Assembly: GCA_015061915.1 (NCBI GenBank)
Contig: SUVR01000002.1
Location: forward strand, 1 to 60,669
Source: Lentisphaerota bacterium
Lineage (GTDB): Bacteria > Verrucomicrobiota > Lentisphaeria > Victivallales > UBA1829
Direction of reading: 5' to 3'
DNA: 60,669 nucleotides
Of the stretch, positions 4,240 to 43,256 are shown one piece after another. The notes beneath the pieces were generated by a model. That model was given only the letters and a program-made list of their open reading frames with translations, made no database searches and was not told the origin of the DNA. The position numbers and the translations under genes were made by a program. How positions within the stretch are numbered: position 1 is the stretch's first letter; the number at the start of each line of letters is the position of its first letter.

Positions 4240-5946
4240 ATGAAAGCATATCCATATTATCCGCAGCGCAAGATCTTTGATCTTGACGGGCTCCATGATT
4301 TTGCGTGGCTGGGTGATACGGTAACACTTGCCGCATTCAGCCCGGAAAATGTGACGGAATACCCCGAAAAAGCTGCCGTTCCCGGCGTCTTTGATCTGTG
4401 CAGCGACCACTACGGTCAACGGGGACTTGCGGTCTACCGTTTTCCCCTTTACGATCTGCCGGAAAACCGGATTCTCCGCTTGAAGATCGGGGGTCTGGGG
4501 CTGGCAGGCCGTGTGTTTTACGATGGCACAGAAATCGCCCGTTCCCTTGCCCCCTATGCCCCTGTAACTGCGGACTTCAGCTCCGGCTGCGGAAAGTCCC
4601 ATGAACTGCTCATTGCCGTGGATAACCGGTTTAACGCCCAGACTCCTTATGACTTTTTCAAAGCATATTACGATTTCTACGGTTTCGGCGGCATCTACCG
4701 CAGCGTTTCGCTGGAAGTTCTGCCGGAAACAGACCGGCTGGAACGGGTGCAGGTCACAACCCTGGATCTGAATACCGGAAAAGTCGCCCTGAAGATCCTG
4801 ACAAACAGCACAAAGAGCGAACTTCCCTGCCGGATCACATTCGATCACGGCAAAGAAAAAGCACTCACCCTGCCCTGCGAAAATGGCGTGGCAGAATGGA
4901 TCACCAACGTGTCGGATTTCCGGATCTGGTCGCCGGAAGATCCCGCTCTGCATACAGTCACCGTCGCTCTGGAAGACGATTCCATTGTGGAACGGTTCGG
5001 GCTGCGGACGATTGAGGCGCGGAACGGCAAGATCATTCTGAACGGGAAAGAAATTTTCTTTGACGGGATCAACCGGCATGAAAGCGATCCGCAACTGGGT
5101 CCGGTCCAGACGCTCCCCGGAATGTTGCAGGATATTCAGCTGATCAAAAATGCCGGAATGAATTTCATCCGGTCCGTTCATTACATACCGGATCAGGCGT
5201 GGCTGGATCTTTGCGATGAAACCGGAATGTTACTCTGGATCGAAACCCTCGGCTGGGGGCTTGCGGCTTCCGAACTGACACCGCAGACGCTGCCGTACTT
5301 CATGGAACAGAACCGTATTATGATCCGGGACGCATACAATCACCCCTCGGTCCTTATCCTCGGTATGCTCAATGAATGTGCGTCCGATGCAGAAAGTTCT
5401 GTGGAATTCTACGCCGAACTGCTCAAGGATATGCACAAAGAAGACCCCACACGCCTGCGCTCCTTCGCCGGTAATAAAAATGTCCGGGACCTCTGTATGG
5501 ACCACGTGGATGTCATCTCCCTGAACTGCTATCCCGGCTGGATCGAAGACATCCGGGACTGTGAAACCCTCGCTTCGGAAATGATCAAGCCGCATCTGAC
5601 AAAACTGGCTGATTTTTATTCGCAGGAATCCTTCGGCGGGAAGCCCATTTTCATCTCCGAGATCGGCGCCTGCGGACTTTACGGGATCCACGATGATGAT
5701 TTTGCACAATGGAGTGAGGAATTTCAGGCGGATTTCATGCGCACCGCCGCCGAAGTCATCTGCGAAGACGGCAGATTTTCCGGCTATACCCTGTGGCAGT
5801 TCTGCGATACCAGGTCTTATCAGCGGGGACATATCCGCACCAAACCCCGCGGGTTCAACTGCGCCGGGATCGTGGATGAATACCGCCGGAAAAAACTGGT
5901 GTACAACGCCCTCGCCAACTTCATCAAAAACAAGAAGAAAGATTGA
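4240..5946 (+). CDS. Glycoside hydrolase family 2 protein (beta-glucuronidase/beta-galactosidase-like)
   Basis: 568 residues from the ATG at 4240, chosen because GGAAGGAAAA precedes it. An in-frame start 20 codons earlier has no RBS and would overlap the promoter. The order is jelly-roll sugar-binding domain (to about residue 165), immunoglobulin-like domain (about 165-255), then TIM barrel. The GH2 signature after the barrel start (FFDGINRHESDP), the acid/base Glu379 in MLNEC and the nucleophile Glu474 in FISEIG are all present, so it should be an active retaining exo-glycosidase. The length fits beta-glucuronidases better than LacZ. No signal peptide is visible, so it probably acts on imported oligosaccharides in the cytoplasm. 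The substrate cannot be read from sequence. Its stop overlaps a possible TTG start of ligA. Confidence 0.85.
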   Translation: MKAYPYYPQRKIFDLDGLHDFAWLGDTVTLAAFSPENVTEYPEKAAVPGVFDLCSDHYGQRGLAVYRFPLYDLPENRILRLKIGGLGLAGRVFYDGTEIARSLAPYAPVTADFSSGCGKSHELLIAVDNRFNAQTPYDFFKAYYDFYGFGGIYRSVSLEVLPETDRLERVQVTTLDLNTGKVALKILTNSTKSELPCRITFDHGKEKALTLPCENGVAEWITNVSDFRIWSPEDPALHTVTVALEDDSIVERFGLRTIEARNGKIILNGKEIFFDGINRHESDPQLGPVQTLPGMLQDIQLIKNAGMNFIRSVHYIPDQAWLDLCDETGMLLWIETLGWGLAASELTPQTLPYFMEQNRIMIRDAYNHPSVLILGMLNECASDAESSVEFYAELLKDMHKEDPTRLRSFAGNKNVRDLCMDHVDVISLNCYPGWIEDIRDCETLASEMIKPHLTKLADFYSQESFGGKPIFISEIGACGLYGIHDDDFAQWSEEFQADFMRTAAEVICEDGRFSGYTLWQFCDTRSYQRGHIRTKPRGFNCAGIVDEYRRKKLVYNALANFIKNKKKD

Positions 5947-5951
5947 AGAAA

Positions 5952-7922
5952 ATGCCGGACGACCTGAAAAATCTGACTGCCGCTCAACTTGCGGAACAGA
6001 TCGAATATCACAACCGTAAATACTGGGCGGAAGGCGAACCGGAGATCAGCGATGATGATTACGATGCGCTGGTGCGTGCCCTCACCGCTCTGGAACCGGA
6101 TCATCCCCTGCTGGTTCAGGTTCAGGCGCCCATCGTTGCCGGTACAGGAAAAGTTGTCCACCGGAAACCTATGCTTTCTCTGGATAAAGCCTACTCTCTG
6201 GAGGAAGTCATTGCGTGGGCGAAAAAGTTTGCCCGATCCCCCCAGGAAGCGCTGCTCGTCCAGCCGAAATACGACGGGATCTCTGCACTGTGGAGTGAAG
6301 GGATCCTTGCCACCCGGGGCGACGGCGAAACCGGGGAAAATATTACGGATAAAATCGAACTGATCGAGTTGGAAACATCCGGTCTGACCGTGCCGTTGAA
6401 GGCGTATTCCGATGCGATCCGGGGCGAAATCGTGATCCGGGACGATGACTTCAGAAATCTTTATGCCACGATCCGCAACAAAAACGGCAGAACCTACAAG
6501 AACTCCCGCAATGCCGTCGCCGGGATCATGGGGCTGAAAGACATCCGGGAAATGCTGCTCCAGCACGCAAAACTTTCCCTCATTGATTACCGCCTCTATT
6601 CGTGGAAAACACGGCTGGATTCTCTGGCGGATGACTGGCAGTATATTCTGGACCAGGCGGAAGCCCTGCCATACCCGATGGATGGTCTGGTCATCAAGCT
6701 CGCAGACGATTCCTATTCGGAGTCACTGGGCAATACCGCCCACCATCCCCGTGGTCAGATCGCATTCAAGTTCAGCGGCGTCCGGCGGGAAACGAAACTC
6801 ATCAACGTGGAGTGGAGCTTCGGCAAGAACTGTCTCACCCCCGTAGCGGAGGTGGAACCGGTGGAGATCGGCGGCACCACGATCCGGCACGCAAGTTTGC
6901 ACAATCTTCAGAATATTCTGGATAAAGACCTGTGTATCGGCGATACCGTTGTGGTGGAACGGGCGGGCGATGTGATCCCGTATATCGTCTCCTCCACACC
7001 CGGGAACGAACGCCATTCCTGCCTTATCGACCACTGTCCGGGCTGCGGTGCGGAACTGGTGCGGGAACTGCCGGAACTGCGCTGCGTCAACCCGGATTGT
7101 CTGGAAACAAAGTTGCGGAACCTTGCCGCCGCTGTCAAAAACATCGGCATCGAACGGCTTGGCGAACCTAATATCCGTAAGATGATGCTCTCTCTCGGCG
7201 TACGGGATCTTTCCGATATTTTCAAACTGACCAAGACTCAGATCCTTTCTATGGAGGGATTCCAGAACCAGTCGGCAGAAAACCTGTTGCGGGAGATCAG
7301 CAACGCCCGGACCGTACCGGACTGGCAGCTGCTGGCATCGTTGAATATCAAGGGGATCGGTCCCAACATTGCCAAAGGTATCCTGCGGGAGTACACCCTT
7401 TCCGAACTGCAGGAAAAGACTGTGGAGGAACTGAGCCGGATCGAAGGGATCGGTCCCGAACGGGCAAACGCCCTGTTCCGGGAACTGCGCGCTCAACAGG
7501 ATATTCTGGCGGAGCTGCTCCGCTGCGTCACGGTCACGGAAACAAAGTCTGCCGGGAATGCCGGAAGACCGACCATCTGTTTCACCGGAAAGATGCCGGA
7601 AAAACGCTCGTTCTACGAGGCATTGGCACAGGAACACGGGTACGAACCGGCAGACAGCGTGAATGCCGATTTGAGTGTACTGGTCTGTATGGATGTGAAT
7701 GAAAACTCCAGTAAACTCAAAAAAGCCCGGAAACTGAATACCCGGATCGTCCAACTGGACGACTGGCTTACCGAAATCAGAAATCAGCCCGCAAACGCCG
7801 GAACTCCTGCGCCTGAAAGCAAGCCGGAGGACGAGCTGCCTCTCTTTTCGTTCGATGAGGAAAAACCGTCAGACGCCAAAGAAAAATCTTCCGGTCCGGA
7901 ACAGTTGACGCTTGGATTTTAG
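5952..7922 (+). CDS. ligA: NAD-dependent DNA ligase
   Basis: 656 residues from ATG 5952. A TTG at 5943 overlapping the GH2 stop would add three residues. It joins nicks during replication and repair using NAD+. The Ia domain (EYHNRKYWAEGEPEISDDDY) binds NMN. The adenylated lysine lies in PKYDGIS (about residue 106). The OB fold, a four-Cys zinc finger (CPGC...CVNPDC, about residues 360-385), helix-hairpin-helix repeats (LNIKGIGPNIAKGI, IEGIGPERAN) and a C-terminal BRCT domain (ICFTGKMPEKRSFYEALAQE) follow in the usual order. A 40-residue acidic, Pro-rich tail after the BRCT is extra. The gene converges on and overlaps the thioesterase gene by 4 bp. Confidence 0.93.
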   Translation: MPDDLKNLTAAQLAEQIEYHNRKYWAEGEPEISDDDYDALVRALTALEPDHPLLVQVQAPIVAGTGKVVHRKPMLSLDKAYSLEEVIAWAKKFARSPQEALLVQPKYDGISALWSEGILATRGDGETGENITDKIELIELETSGLTVPLKAYSDAIRGEIVIRDDDFRNLYATIRNKNGRTYKNSRNAVAGIMGLKDIREMLLQHAKLSLIDYRLYSWKTRLDSLADDWQYILDQAEALPYPMDGLVIKLADDSYSESLGNTAHHPRGQIAFKFSGVRRETKLINVEWSFGKNCLTPVAEVEPVEIGGTTIRHASLHNLQNILDKDLCIGDTVVVERAGDVIPYIVSSTPGNERHSCLIDHCPGCGAELVRELPELRCVNPDCLETKLRNLAAAVKNIGIERLGEPNIRKMMLSLGVRDLSDIFKLTKTQILSMEGFQNQSAENLLREISNARTVPDWQLLASLNIKGIGPNIAKGILREYTLSELQEKTVEELSRIEGIGPERANALFRELRAQQDILAELLRCVTVTETKSAGNAGRPTICFTGKMPEKRSFYEALAQEHGYEPADSVNADLSVLVCMDVNENSSKLKKARKLNTRIVQLDDWLTEIRNQPANAGTPAPESKPEDELPLFSFDEEKPSDAKEKSSGPEQLTLGF

Positions 7923-39564: not shown

Positions 39565-39582
39565 GCTGTAAGACAGCTGAAG

Positions 39583-39619
39583 ATACAGGATAATGTACCA
39601 GAAGTGCGTTATCCTGTAT
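39583..39619 (+). terminator. Terminator after rpoZ
   Basis: Perfect 11-bp arms ATACAGGATAA (39583-39593) and TTATCCTGTAT (39609-39619) followed by a T-rich tract. It separates the etf operon from purE. Confidence 0.75.
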
Positions 39620-39653
39620 TCTTGTTTGCACACGATAAAAATAAGAGGTTAAA

Positions 39654-40163
39654 ATGAGTACTGTTACAATTATCATGGGCAGCAAAAGTGACCTGCCCGC
39701 ACTGAAGGGTGCATTTGATACCTTAAAAGAATTCGGAGTCGACTGCGAAGGTCGGATCCTTTCCGCCCACCGCACTCCGGATGCCGCCGCTGAACTGGCA
39801 AAGAACGCCGAAGAAAATGGTACGAAAGTTCTGATCTGCGCTGCCGGAATGGCAGCCCATCTGGCGGGCGTGATCGCCGGGCACACGGTTCTGCCGGTCA
39901 TCGGCATTCCCATGGCATCCGCTCCGTTCAACGGGCTGGATTCCCTGCTGGCAATGGTCCAGATGCCTCCGGGGATCCCTGTGGCAACCGTAACTGCCGG
40001 TAACGCCGGCGGCAAAAACGCTGCCCTCCTGGCAATCCAGATGCTGGCACTTTCCGATCCGGAACTGATGCAGAAACTGAAAGACTTCCGTGTCAAACAG
40101 GCGGAAAAAGTTCTGGCAGACGACAAAGTTCTGCGTGAAAGCGGCTACTCTGCCCTGATCTGA
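39654..40163 (+). CDS. purE: N5-carboxyaminoimidazole ribonucleotide mutase
   Basis: 169 residues, class I PurE. It converts N5-CAIR to CAIR in purine synthesis. The motif IIMGSKSDLPALKGAF, the catalytic His in SAHRTP, AGMAAHLAGVIAGHT, PVIGIPM and the C-terminal ALLAIQMLAL are canonical. No partner purK is beside it. The next gene begins 17 nt downstream with a poor RBS, so co-transcription with the MBOAT gene is possible. Confidence 0.95.
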   Translation: MSTVTIIMGSKSDLPALKGAFDTLKEFGVDCEGRILSAHRTPDAAAELAKNAEENGTKVLICAAGMAAHLAGVIAGHTVLPVIGIPMASAPFNGLDSLLAMVQMPPGIPVATVTAGNAGGKNAALLAIQMLALSDPELMQKLKDFRVKQAEKVLADDKVLRESGYSALI

Positions 40164-40179: not shown

Positions 40180-40527
40180 ATGGTATTCTCCTCCTCCATA
40201 TTCCTCTTTGCATTTCTGCCGCTGGTGCTGCTGCTCTACTTCAACCCGTTGAACAGAGTCTCCGGGGCAACAAAACTTTTTGTTCTCTGTACAGCAGGGA
40301 TGCTGGGAATCATGTACTTTTCACCGGAGGATATACCAGTCTCATGGATCTTTTACGGAGCTGTAGCGCTGTTTGGACTTTACCTCTGCAAGGACTGGAT
40401 CAACCGACTCTGCGCGGCGCGGCACAGCACAGCACAGCACAGCACAGCACAGCACAGCACAGCACAGCACAGCACAGCACAGCACAGCACAGCACAGCAC
40501 GCTCTACACGGAATCTTGTTCTGCTGA
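40180..40527 (+). CDS. N-terminal part of the MBOAT O-acyltransferase, frameshifted by the CACAG tract
   Basis: 115 residues as read here. MVFSSSIFLFAFLPLVLLLYF is the typical first helix of AlgI-type MBOAT proteins. Two extra hydrophobic helices (residues about 32-48 and 55-75) follow, then HSTAQ repeats encoded by the pentanucleotide tract, and the frame stops 27 nt after it. In normal AlgI the helix RNLVLL follows the first helix within about ten residues; here that helix is in another frame (see 40344-41858). Deleting one 5-nt unit (or adding two) makes 40180-41858 a single frame of 557 (or 562) residues. It is probably the OFF state of a phase-variable gene rather than a dead fragment. 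Confidence 0.75.
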   Translation: MVFSSSIFLFAFLPLVLLLYFNPLNRVSGATKLFVLCTAGMLGIMYFSPEDIPVSWIFYGAVALFGLYLCKDWINRLCAARHSTAQHSTAQHSTAQHSTAQHSTAQHALHGILFC

Positions 40528-41858
40528 TCTTCAGTCTGGCATTCTATGCGTGGGGTGAACCGAAGTACATTCTGCTTCTGCTGGTCTCGATTCTGCTGAA
40601 CTACGGTATGGGGCTGTGGGTCGGAAAGTATCCGCAAAAGACCACGGGAAAATGGCTGGTGGGCGTGACGGTCCTCGCCAATGTTGCGATCTTCTTCTAC
40701 TTCAAGTATATGACCTTCGTCTTTACGGAGTTGAATGAAGCCTTCTCCCTTGACCTGCCGCTGAAAAATGTGGTGCTGCCCATCGGGATCAGTTTCTACA
40801 CCTTCCAGGCGCTGTCCTATGTGGTGGATGTGTACCGGGGCGAAGTGAAGTCCGAAAAGAATCCGCTGAAAGTGGGGCTGTACATTGCCCTGTTCCCCCA
40901 GTTGATCGCGGGTCCGATCGTGCGGTACAATACCATCGCAGCGGAACTGACGGACCGGAAAGAAACCTGGGATGATTTTTCCGCAGGTGCGGTCCGTTTC
41001 ACCACCGGTCTCGCCAAAAAGATGGTGCTTGCCAATCCCTGCGGATACATTGCAGATATGGCGTTCAATGCGCCGCAGAACGAGCAAACCGTGCTGCTCT
41101 GCTGGATGGGAGCGATCGCCTACACATTCCAGATCTATTTCGACTTTTCCGGTTACTCGGATATGGCGATCGGGCTGGGGCGTATGTTCGGATTCCATTT
41201 TCTGGAGAACTTCAACTTCCCGTACATCGCCAAAGGGATCACGGATTTCTGGCGGCGGTGGCACATCTCCCTTTCCACCTGGTTCCGGGACTATGTATAT
41301 ATCCCGCTGGGAGGCAACCGGAGCAGTTCTAAAATGCGGGTTCTGTTCAACCTGTTTCTGGTCTGGCTGCTTACCGGTGTATGGCACGGGGCAAACTGGA
41401 CATTCCTCTGCTGGGGTCTGTTCTACTTTGTGCTGCTGATGATCGAACGCTTTACCGGTCTCAACAAGAATCCCCGTTTCTTCTGCTATCTCTACACCCT
41501 GCCCTGCGTGATCGCGGCATGGGTCCTCTTCCGGGCAGAAACGATCTCTGCGGCATGGCGCTACCTGAAGACGATGTGCGGTCTGACAGATGCGCCTCTC
41601 TTTGCGCCCTACAATATCTTCGTGCTGGGTGAATATGCTCCTTTCCTGATTCTGGGAGCGATCTTCTCCCTGCCGATCCTGCCGGCATTGAAAGAACGGA
41701 ATTTCTATCTGGATAAGATCGGAAACAACGACTGCAGAATTGCAGCGGAAAAGACGTTGACTGTTGCCAGATTTGCTTCGATCATGTTCGTGTTCCTGCT
41801 GGCGGTTTCGTTCGTGGTCAAGAGTACGAACAACCCCTTTATCTACTTTAACTTCTGA
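40344..41858 (+). CDS. MBOAT family O-acyltransferase (AlgI-like), main part
   Basis: 504 residues in this frame, starting at an internal ATG 13 nt after GGAGG, then HSTAQ repeats from the CACAG tract, then a standard AlgI-type body. RNLVLLIFSLAFYAWGEPKYILLLLVSILLNY is the first conserved block. PIGISFYTFQALSYVVDVYRGE, QLIAGPIVRY, FDFSGYSDMAIGLGRMFGF and FWRRWHISLSTWFRDYVYIPLGGNR follow, and the invariant His is in GVWHGANWTF. Around ten membrane helices. It transfers acyl (usually acetyl) groups across the inner membrane to exported polysaccharide with the AlgJ/X-like partner downstream. The short protein from the internal start would lack the proper N-terminal helices, so it may be inactive or altered. 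Confidence 0.85.
   Translation: MDLLRSCSAVWTLPLQGLDQPTLRGAAQHSTAQHSTAQHSTAQHSTAQHSTARSTRNLVLLIFSLAFYAWGEPKYILLLLVSILLNYGMGLWVGKYPQKTTGKWLVGVTVLANVAIFFYFKYMTFVFTELNEAFSLDLPLKNVVLPIGISFYTFQALSYVVDVYRGEVKSEKNPLKVGLYIALFPQLIAGPIVRYNTIAAELTDRKETWDDFSAGAVRFTTGLAKKMVLANPCGYIADMAFNAPQNEQTVLLCWMGAIAYTFQIYFDFSGYSDMAIGLGRMFGFHFLENFNFPYIAKGITDFWRRWHISLSTWFRDYVYIPLGGNRSSSKMRVLFNLFLVWLLTGVWHGANWTFLCWGLFYFVLLMIERFTGLNKNPRFFCYLYTLPCVIAAWVLFRAETISAAWRYLKTMCGLTDAPLFAPYNIFVLGEYAPFLILGAIFSLPILPALKERNFYLDKIGNNDCRIAAEKTLTVARFASIMFVFLLAVSFVVKSTNNPFIYFNF
40423..40500 (+). repeat. CACAG pentanucleotide tract, 15 full units plus CAC, inside the MBOAT gene
   Basis: Uninterrupted CACAG from 40423 to 40497 then CAC to 40500, 78 nt. 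In all three forward frames the tract encodes permutations of His-Ser-Thr-Ala-Gln without a stop, so any unit-number change only alters the frame after it. With 15 units the upstream frame meets a stop soon after; with 14 or 17 units it joins the conserved MBOAT frame. Such tracts mutate by slipped-strand mispairing. Confidence 0.95.
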
Positions 41859-41868
41859 GGAGCGGAAA

Positions 41869-43188
41869 ATGAACCACAAAGAACACCATGCGTTTGCGCT
41901 CTTCTTTCTGATCTTTCTGGCAGTCAGTTCTTTTCCTGTACTGTTTACGATCGTCCAGCACGCAAGAAGTAAGGCTTTACGGGGATACGATCAATGGTTG
42001 AAGAACCGGAACATTGAAGTTACCCAACCTGCCAAAACGATCAAAAGTCCTTACGGCGAAGAACTGCCGGAAACGCCGCCGGTGGTACAACCGCAGCGGA
42101 AGGGATGGGCAAACTCCCGATTCACGATCATCCGTCAACTGAAAGTATTTAAGAAATTACTGCTGCCGACACGGAAGTACATCGAACAGCTGGTAATCAA
42201 TACCTTCCCCTTCCGGGATGAATTTTCCACTTCCAATATGGCGTTCAAGTATCATCTCGGTATGAAAATGCCGATCGAAAAAGATGGCACGCTCCTTCTG
42301 CCAAACAAAAAAATGGCAGTAAAACTTTTCTTTTCGCCCGCTTTCTCACAAGGAGAAATAAACAAACTTCTCAAGTATAAAGAATTGTGCGACAAAAACA
42401 ATATAAATTTCTTTGTTATATTCCGCCCCTTTGATCAAGGTTTTCATCATGATTATTCAGAGCCGTATAAAGGACTGATATTAAACTACGGTCAAAAATT
42501 GGCTCAAAGGGCAGCTCAACTTGAAAAGCTCGACATAAAAACGTTTGAGCTTTATAAGGCAATGCGCAGTGAAATACCGGAAGAAAAATGGCAAAACTAT
42601 TGGTATCAGACCGATCACCACTGGAATGTGTATGGAGCTCTCTTAGGCGGAAAATTGATCGCAGATTATATGAATAAAAACTGCGGGACATCTTATGATT
42701 TAGCATACTTTGATCCGGAAATATACATCACAAAGCGATGGAAAAATTCTTTTGCAGGCTCATGGGGGAAAAAATTATCATTAAGTTATTGCAACAATAA
42801 AAGTGAAGATTTTGATATTCTCTATCCCCGTTTCGATACCGATTTCAGGATCGAAATACCAGCAATTAATTTCGTAAAACAAGGTGATTTTTCAGTCATG
42901 ACACTCCCTGCATGTATAAACTATGACCGATATCATGCATTTTTGTACAACGCATTTCTGAACGGAAACAGACCTTTAATCCGAATTATAAACAACAAGA
43001 TCCCGGAAGGGAAAAAGATCATCGTTATCAAGGATTCCTACAATAATCCAATGGTTCCATTTCTGGCATTGCAGACGAAAGAGGTCATTATGCTTGATCC
43101 CCGGCAATATCCCGAAAAAATGATCTGGCAAACTATTGAACAAGAAAAGCCGGATCTTCTGTTTATTATGTTTGGTGCCGGGCTTTGA
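41869..43188 (+). CDS. AlgJ/AlgX-like SGNH-type protein, partner of the MBOAT
   Basis: 439 residues from ATG 41869 (GAGGAGCGG upstream). One N-terminal membrane anchor (ALFFLIFLAVSSFPVLF) precedes a periplasmic domain. The DHHW motif is at residues 249-252 (TDHHWN), and the catalytic Ser is probably Ser390 in IKDSYNN, giving the acetyl-esterase/acetyltransferase fold of AlgJ and AlgX that places acetyl groups on polysaccharide. It follows the MBOAT stop by 10 nt. Between about 42300 and 43000 the DNA becomes strikingly AT-rich with A/T-ending codons, whereas both ends match the neighbours, suggesting that the catalytic core was exchanged by recombination. Confidence 0.82.
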   Translation: MNHKEHHAFALFFLIFLAVSSFPVLFTIVQHARSKALRGYDQWLKNRNIEVTQPAKTIKSPYGEELPETPPVVQPQRKGWANSRFTIIRQLKVFKKLLLPTRKYIEQLVINTFPFRDEFSTSNMAFKYHLGMKMPIEKDGTLLLPNKKMAVKLFFSPAFSQGEINKLLKYKELCDKNNINFFVIFRPFDQGFHHDYSEPYKGLILNYGQKLAQRAAQLEKLDIKTFELYKAMRSEIPEEKWQNYWYQTDHHWNVYGALLGGKLIADYMNKNCGTSYDLAYFDPEIYITKRWKNSFAGSWGKKLSLSYCNNKSEDFDILYPRFDTDFRIEIPAINFVKQGDFSVMTLPACINYDRYHAFLYNAFLNGNRPLIRIINNKIPEGKKIIVIKDSYNNPMVPFLALQTKEVIMLDPRQYPEKMIWQTIEQEKPDLLFIMFGAGL

Positions 43189-43218: not shown

Positions 43219-43256
43219 GCGGAGTTGTGAGATCATGCTCACAACTCCGCTTTTTT
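43219..43256 (+). terminator. Terminator of the MBOAT/AlgJ operon
   Basis: Perfect 13-bp arms GCGGAGTTGTGAG (43219-43231) and CTCACAACTCCGC (43238-43250), followed by six T. It is 30 nt after the AlgJ-like stop. Confidence 0.93.

Follow-up and report, generated by a model that had tools for sequence, protein, structure and literature searches.

The window analysed here is a 60,669-nt stretch of contig SUVR01000002.1 from a Lentisphaerota bacterium, and the locus described (Table 1) is an MBOAT O-acyltransferase gene whose coding sequence is divided by a long CACAG array. It lies between a gene that we take to be PurE-like, from its sequence and general knowledge, and a gene for an SGNH-type partner protein. 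The three genes are flanked by terminator-like hairpins, one at 39582-39620 before the PurE-like gene and the other after the SGNH gene, both of which are consensus matches only. A search of Rfam gave no match within 35-47 kb of the window.

Table 1. Features of the MBOAT locus in the window and of array-bearing loci in related genomes
Feature	Location	Strand	Remarks
PurE-like gene (presumed)	39654..40163	+	ends 16 nt before the MBOAT start
MBOAT 5' part	40180..40422	+	TM1 (MVFSSSIFLFAFLPLVLLLYF) and two-helix insert; insert common only to G233 and G004
GGAGG (40327-40331) and internal ATG (40344)	40327..40346	+	core frame at 15 units; candidate 504-aa product
Array, (CACAG)15 + CAC	40423..40500	+	HSTAQ repeats in every forward frame
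MBOAT 3' part	40501..41858	+	holds the catalytic core; out of register with the 5' part when 15 units are present; RNLVLL from 40509
TGA ending the 40180 frame at 15 units	40525..40527	+	115-aa stub
Conserved MBOAT histidine codon (WHG)	41385..41387	+	alignment to DltB
C-terminal FIYFNF (FXYXXF acyl-shuttle motif)	41838..41855	+	
SGNH/DHHW acyltransferase partner, PatB1-like	41869..43188	+	439 aa; 10 nt after the MBOAT gene
Terminator-like hairpin after the SGNH gene	43219..43250	+	consensus match only
AT3 acyltransferase genes (two), each with a pentanucleotide array	L244 (G006:C20) ~4400-6565	-	beside a glycosyltransferase gene
Gapped GCAGA array, ~39 or more units	L245 (G020:C23) ~5093-5330		upstream of Eco57I-type methylase and helicase-like gene
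Intergenic array	L128 (G029:C11) 1500-1564; L170 (G032:C36); L209/L210 (G031)		upstream of solute-binding/histidine-kinase gene
G152 paralogue pair	L277 (G152:C1); L278 (G152:C171)		look of exported surface proteins; the one tested has no Pfam match

Direct reading of the window gives 15 CACAG units at 40423-40497, all of them perfect and followed by CAC, although this is the count of a draft assembly and may be off. The perfect period-5 run covers 79 nt (40422-40500), while in 100 simulated windows matched for second-order composition the longest such run was 16 nt and the mean 13 nt, so the length of the array far exceeds chance. The repeat background was surveyed on the 254-kb contig, where no simple repeat elsewhere is longer than 31 nt, and across the genome for the searched motifs, which revealed no second (CACAG)4 site. 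The array exceeds the five pentanucleotide units from which PhasomeIt calls a repeat (PMC5953494) and lies within a gene, and the number of units sets the reading frame, as in slipped-strand phase-variable genes.

The consequences of a change in unit number can be read from the sequence. With 15 units the frame opened by the ATG at 40180 ends early in the core, 16 units would give a product of 127 aa, and counts of 14 or 17 give 557 and 562 aa, so that a full-length protein results only if the number of units equals 2 modulo 3. No forward frame meets a stop codon within the array, because all three read the HSTAQ peptide. A preliminary description of this DNA, made from the sequence, had claimed that 15 CACAG units plus CAC divide a single MBOAT gene between two frames, that the loss of one unit or the gain of two would restore it, and that the tract is free of stops in the forward frames; our reading agrees on all three points.

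The divided MBOAT gene and its partner

In about 100 MBOAT homologues the FYAWGE motif lies about 41 residues past the start, whereas in the intact homologue of G233, a genome of the same order as the window genome, the figure is 93. The window gene runs from TM1 through about 60 more residues with two hydrophobic stretches to the array and then the core, and the G233 gene has the same layout in a single ORF of 531 aa that lacks the array (63% identity over 449 aa in the core, 48% over 65 aa in the N-terminus). The homologue in G004, from the same family as the window genome, likewise has both parts in one ORF without an array and is cut by a contig end. Since these tract-free homologues encode both parts continuously, the two halves are, on this comparison, one gene, with the array at the junction of insert and core. 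The one-gene reading of the preliminary description is thereby borne out, the relatives contradicting the separate genes that it had set as its refutation. Its view of the 5' half as the N-terminal helix was correct for TM1, which does precede the array, but left out the insert of two helices, which is absent from ordinary MBOATs. The part of the profile that covers this insert (40240-40422 in the window, L165 in G233 and L124 in G004) was matched in only these three among 388 genomes of the phylum (E 1e-8).

In several other homologues the loop after TM1 is extended by long insertions, which suggests that the site of the array tolerates changes in length. The N-terminus of PatA is predicted to be periplasmic (PMC12148441), and by analogy the loop encoded by the array is probably cytoplasmic. 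The preliminary description also pointed to an internal ATG with an upstream GGAGG in the frame of the core. Both elements are present, while the truncated third product proposed to start there is possible and weakly supported: the spacing of 12 nt is longer than usual, and the 504-aa protein would lack TM1.

The core matches the MBOAT family PF03062 with 96.5 bits against a cut-off of 27, the nearest solved MBOAT structures are those of DltB, with which the WHG histidine aligns, and the protein ends in FIYFNF. This fits FXYXXF, the acyl-shuttle motif at which PatA undergoes auto-acetylation (PMC12148441) and which stands at the C-terminal end of 105 of 106 homologues scanned. Against the DltB equivalog TIGR04091 the protein scores 159.7 bits, below the cut-off of 375. 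The product of the adjoining gene matches the DHHW and ALGX profiles and has PatB1 as its best match among solved structures, and the same order of MBOAT followed by SGNH gene is found in G233 and in G001, the congener discussed below. The MBOAT histidine, the FXYXXF end and the adjoining PatB1-like SGNH gene together mark the protein, by profile and motif, as the membrane component of a PatAB-type acylation pair made up of an MBOAT and an SGNH protein. Such a pair most likely O-acylates an envelope polymer, and the surface O-acylation suggested in the preliminary description is in line with the profile and structure matches of the SGNH partner.

A measure of selection comes from the sole congener compared, Lentisphaeria bacterium RGIG8655 (G001) from water deer cecum. 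The two cores differ by about 87 synonymous changes against 28 nonsynonymous ones (dS 0.35, dN 0.028, dN/dS 0.079). By this comparison the MBOAT core is under purifying selection and a long-dead gene is excluded, while a recent inactivation of the assembled copy may have occurred. The G001 contig starts 33 nt beyond the position of the array, a coincidence of about 3% given the number of its contigs, and the upstream half of the gene was not found in this bin, which is 72% complete, by either DNA or protein search. The SGNH partner (41869-43188 against L043) is only 51% identical between the two genomes and the MBOAT 95%, perhaps reflecting an exchange or a fast change of acceptor specificity.

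Like arrays in related genomes

Arrays of the same kind occur in other Lentisphaeria. GCANA arrays of five or more units are present in 7 of 198 Lentisphaeria genomes, with none for a reversed-pattern control, and are concentrated in the family of the window genome (5 of its 36 genomes vs. 2 of the 162 outside it, Fisher p = 0.0025). An intergenic site in a sister genus has 13.0 GCACA units in G029 and 24.0 in G032, two close species, with identical adjoining sequence; in G031 the unit at this site is GCAGA, the array runs into a contig end, and a further contig begins near its other side. Two paralogues in G152 have GCAGA arrays of 77 and 37 nt (15.4 and 7.4 units, eight units apart) a short distance past the same start codon, and both genes are out of frame with their ATG. 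In G135 a contig ends within an array seven codons after an ATG; contig ends at or adjoining array sites are seen in G001, G031 and G135. Sequence comparison thus shows that arrays of this type change by whole units, both from one close species to another and among paralogues. The comparison of unit numbers in relatives that the preliminary description had proposed is therefore informative in part: like arrays at other sites do differ by whole units, but the MBOAT homologues in G233 and G004 have no array to count.

Relatives have further candidate targets. In G006 the arrays lie in a cluster of acyltransferase and glycosyltransferase genes; in the first of its AT3 genes (ACAGT)4.8 splits two frames, the halves matching positions 2-142 and 151-324 of the 326 in PF01757, and in the second an ATG out of frame with the remainder of the gene is followed directly by an AGCAG array of 14.6 units. 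The G020 locus is a candidate phase-variable restriction-modification operon. Contingency loci classically target surface modification, surface proteins and DNA methylation. A separate repeat, in no convincing gene, is the octanucleotide TCTTCACA, present in 3.9 copies at G000:C2:214053-214083 (L149).

Probable slipped-strand switching and its alternatives

We consider it very probable, at roughly 0.85, that this is a contingency locus of the slipped-strand kind, in its OFF state in the present assembly and one of a set in the clade. The control of a phase-variable MBOAT by slippage, as put forward in the preliminary description, is supported by the intact tract-free homologue, the purifying selection on the core and the like arrays that differ by units. 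The scheme that we infer, in which switching at the locus, the chemistry of the enzyme, the acylated polymer and any benefit, such as the advantage against phage or immunity put forward in the preliminary description, are all deduced, is as follows. Replication slippage would add or remove whole CACAG units in the stretch coding for the loop that links the N-terminal helices to the catalytic core, and only counts of 2 modulo 3 would place both MBOAT parts in frame. In the ON state, the full MBOAT would take an acyl group from acyl-CoA, load it onto the tyrosine of its own C-terminal FXYXXF motif and pass it to the SGNH product of the downstream gene, and this partner would O-acylate an envelope or surface polymer. 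In the OFF state, represented by the 15 units of this assembly, only the stub would be made, and the level of the partner may drop through polarity. A gain or loss of three units would affect nothing but how many HSTAQ repeats stand in a loop tolerant of length changes.

Evidence can also be brought against this scheme, as the array is not conserved in the gene, being absent from G233 and G004, and the sole congener is cut at the site. It is also important to consider that a single expansion of the array may have broken the gene, with its loss now underway and no switching back, and both the out-of-frame state of the assembled copy and the second, intact MBOAT gene in the genome are compatible with such decay. 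We regard this as very unlikely, given that the core frame remains open over about 1.3 kb and has the low dN/dS reported above, that the SGNH partner is intact, and that the sole lesion is a whole-unit repeat. An error in the unit count, arising in sequencing or assembly, would mean that the gene is always in frame and that the array is a linker of variable length. While short-read assemblies often break at such arrays or miscount them, 5-nt units cannot change freely without a change of frame, and the two G006 AT3 genes and the two G152 paralogues are likewise found out of frame, which makes this account very unlikely.

Two separate genes, or two frames joined by a programmed ribosomal frameshift, would accord with the fact that both parts are open frames and with the lack of a significant family match for the 5' part when taken by itself. 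The separate-gene form is rejected on account of the single-ORF homologues in G233 and G004, no frameshift signal was noticed by eye, and we judge the probability of either to be minimal. The contingency locus remains the reading that we prefer, and its extension to the clade is somewhat favoured: gut Lentisphaeria would hold a set of genes switched by CACAG/GCAGA-type arrays, comprising acyltransferases of the MBOAT and AT3 families, surface-like proteins and perhaps also a sensor kinase and a restriction-modification operon, with surface acylation bet-hedged and the MBOAT the first reported to be controlled in this manner.

Known systems and meaning

Most known cases of repeat-driven phase variation come from pathogens with small genomes. 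The closest functional parallel is oafA of Haemophilus influenzae, a phase-variable O-acetyltransferase that literature cited in PMC9558356 ties to tetranucleotide repeats. Like the window MBOAT, for which this role is putative, it gives phase-variable O-acylation of a surface glycan; oafA, however, is an AT3 protein with a tetranucleotide repeat, whereas the window locus has an MBOAT whose SGNH partner is a separate protein, and its repeat is a pentanucleotide. The same CACAG unit is found in a mod gene of Pasteurella haemolytica, listed in a table of PMC5149525 under slipped-strand control of a coding gene, but that gene encodes a DNA methyltransferase of a gammaproteobacterium and shows no sign of common descent with the window gene. 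PatA/PatB and PatA1/PatB1 (PMC12148441) share with the window the MBOAT histidine, the C-terminal FXYXXF and the adjacent SGNH gene, and the window MBOAT differs from PatA and PatA1 in its two extra N-terminal helices and its repeat array. DltB/DltD, which include the nearest solved MBOAT structures, follow the same logic of an MBOAT with an SGNH-type partner, but the window protein falls below the DltB cut-off and has FXYXXF within the MBOAT, where the Dlt system has it on the microprotein DltX.

A literature search with partial journal coverage found no repeat-switched MBOAT in titles or abstracts, which is a lead and not proof, and, with the same partial coverage, no report of repeat-driven phase variation in Lentisphaeria. 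The mechanism is already known; the MBOAT target and the clade appear to be new. In the little-cultured commensal Lentisphaeria of animal guts, one type of array would then serve several surface-modification genes, MBOAT among them. As a practical warning, annotation of metagenome-assembled genomes will label array-split genes as truncated, and contigs break at these sites. The model predicts 5-nt ladders at array sites in gut metagenome reads.

One further MBOAT observation comes from the sister genus mentioned above, where in G029 (G029:C8, L126, ~1501-1581) a truncated MBOAT start with an open frame of 36 aa lies directly 5' of an intact MBOAT gene, an arrangement that resembles a partial duplication.
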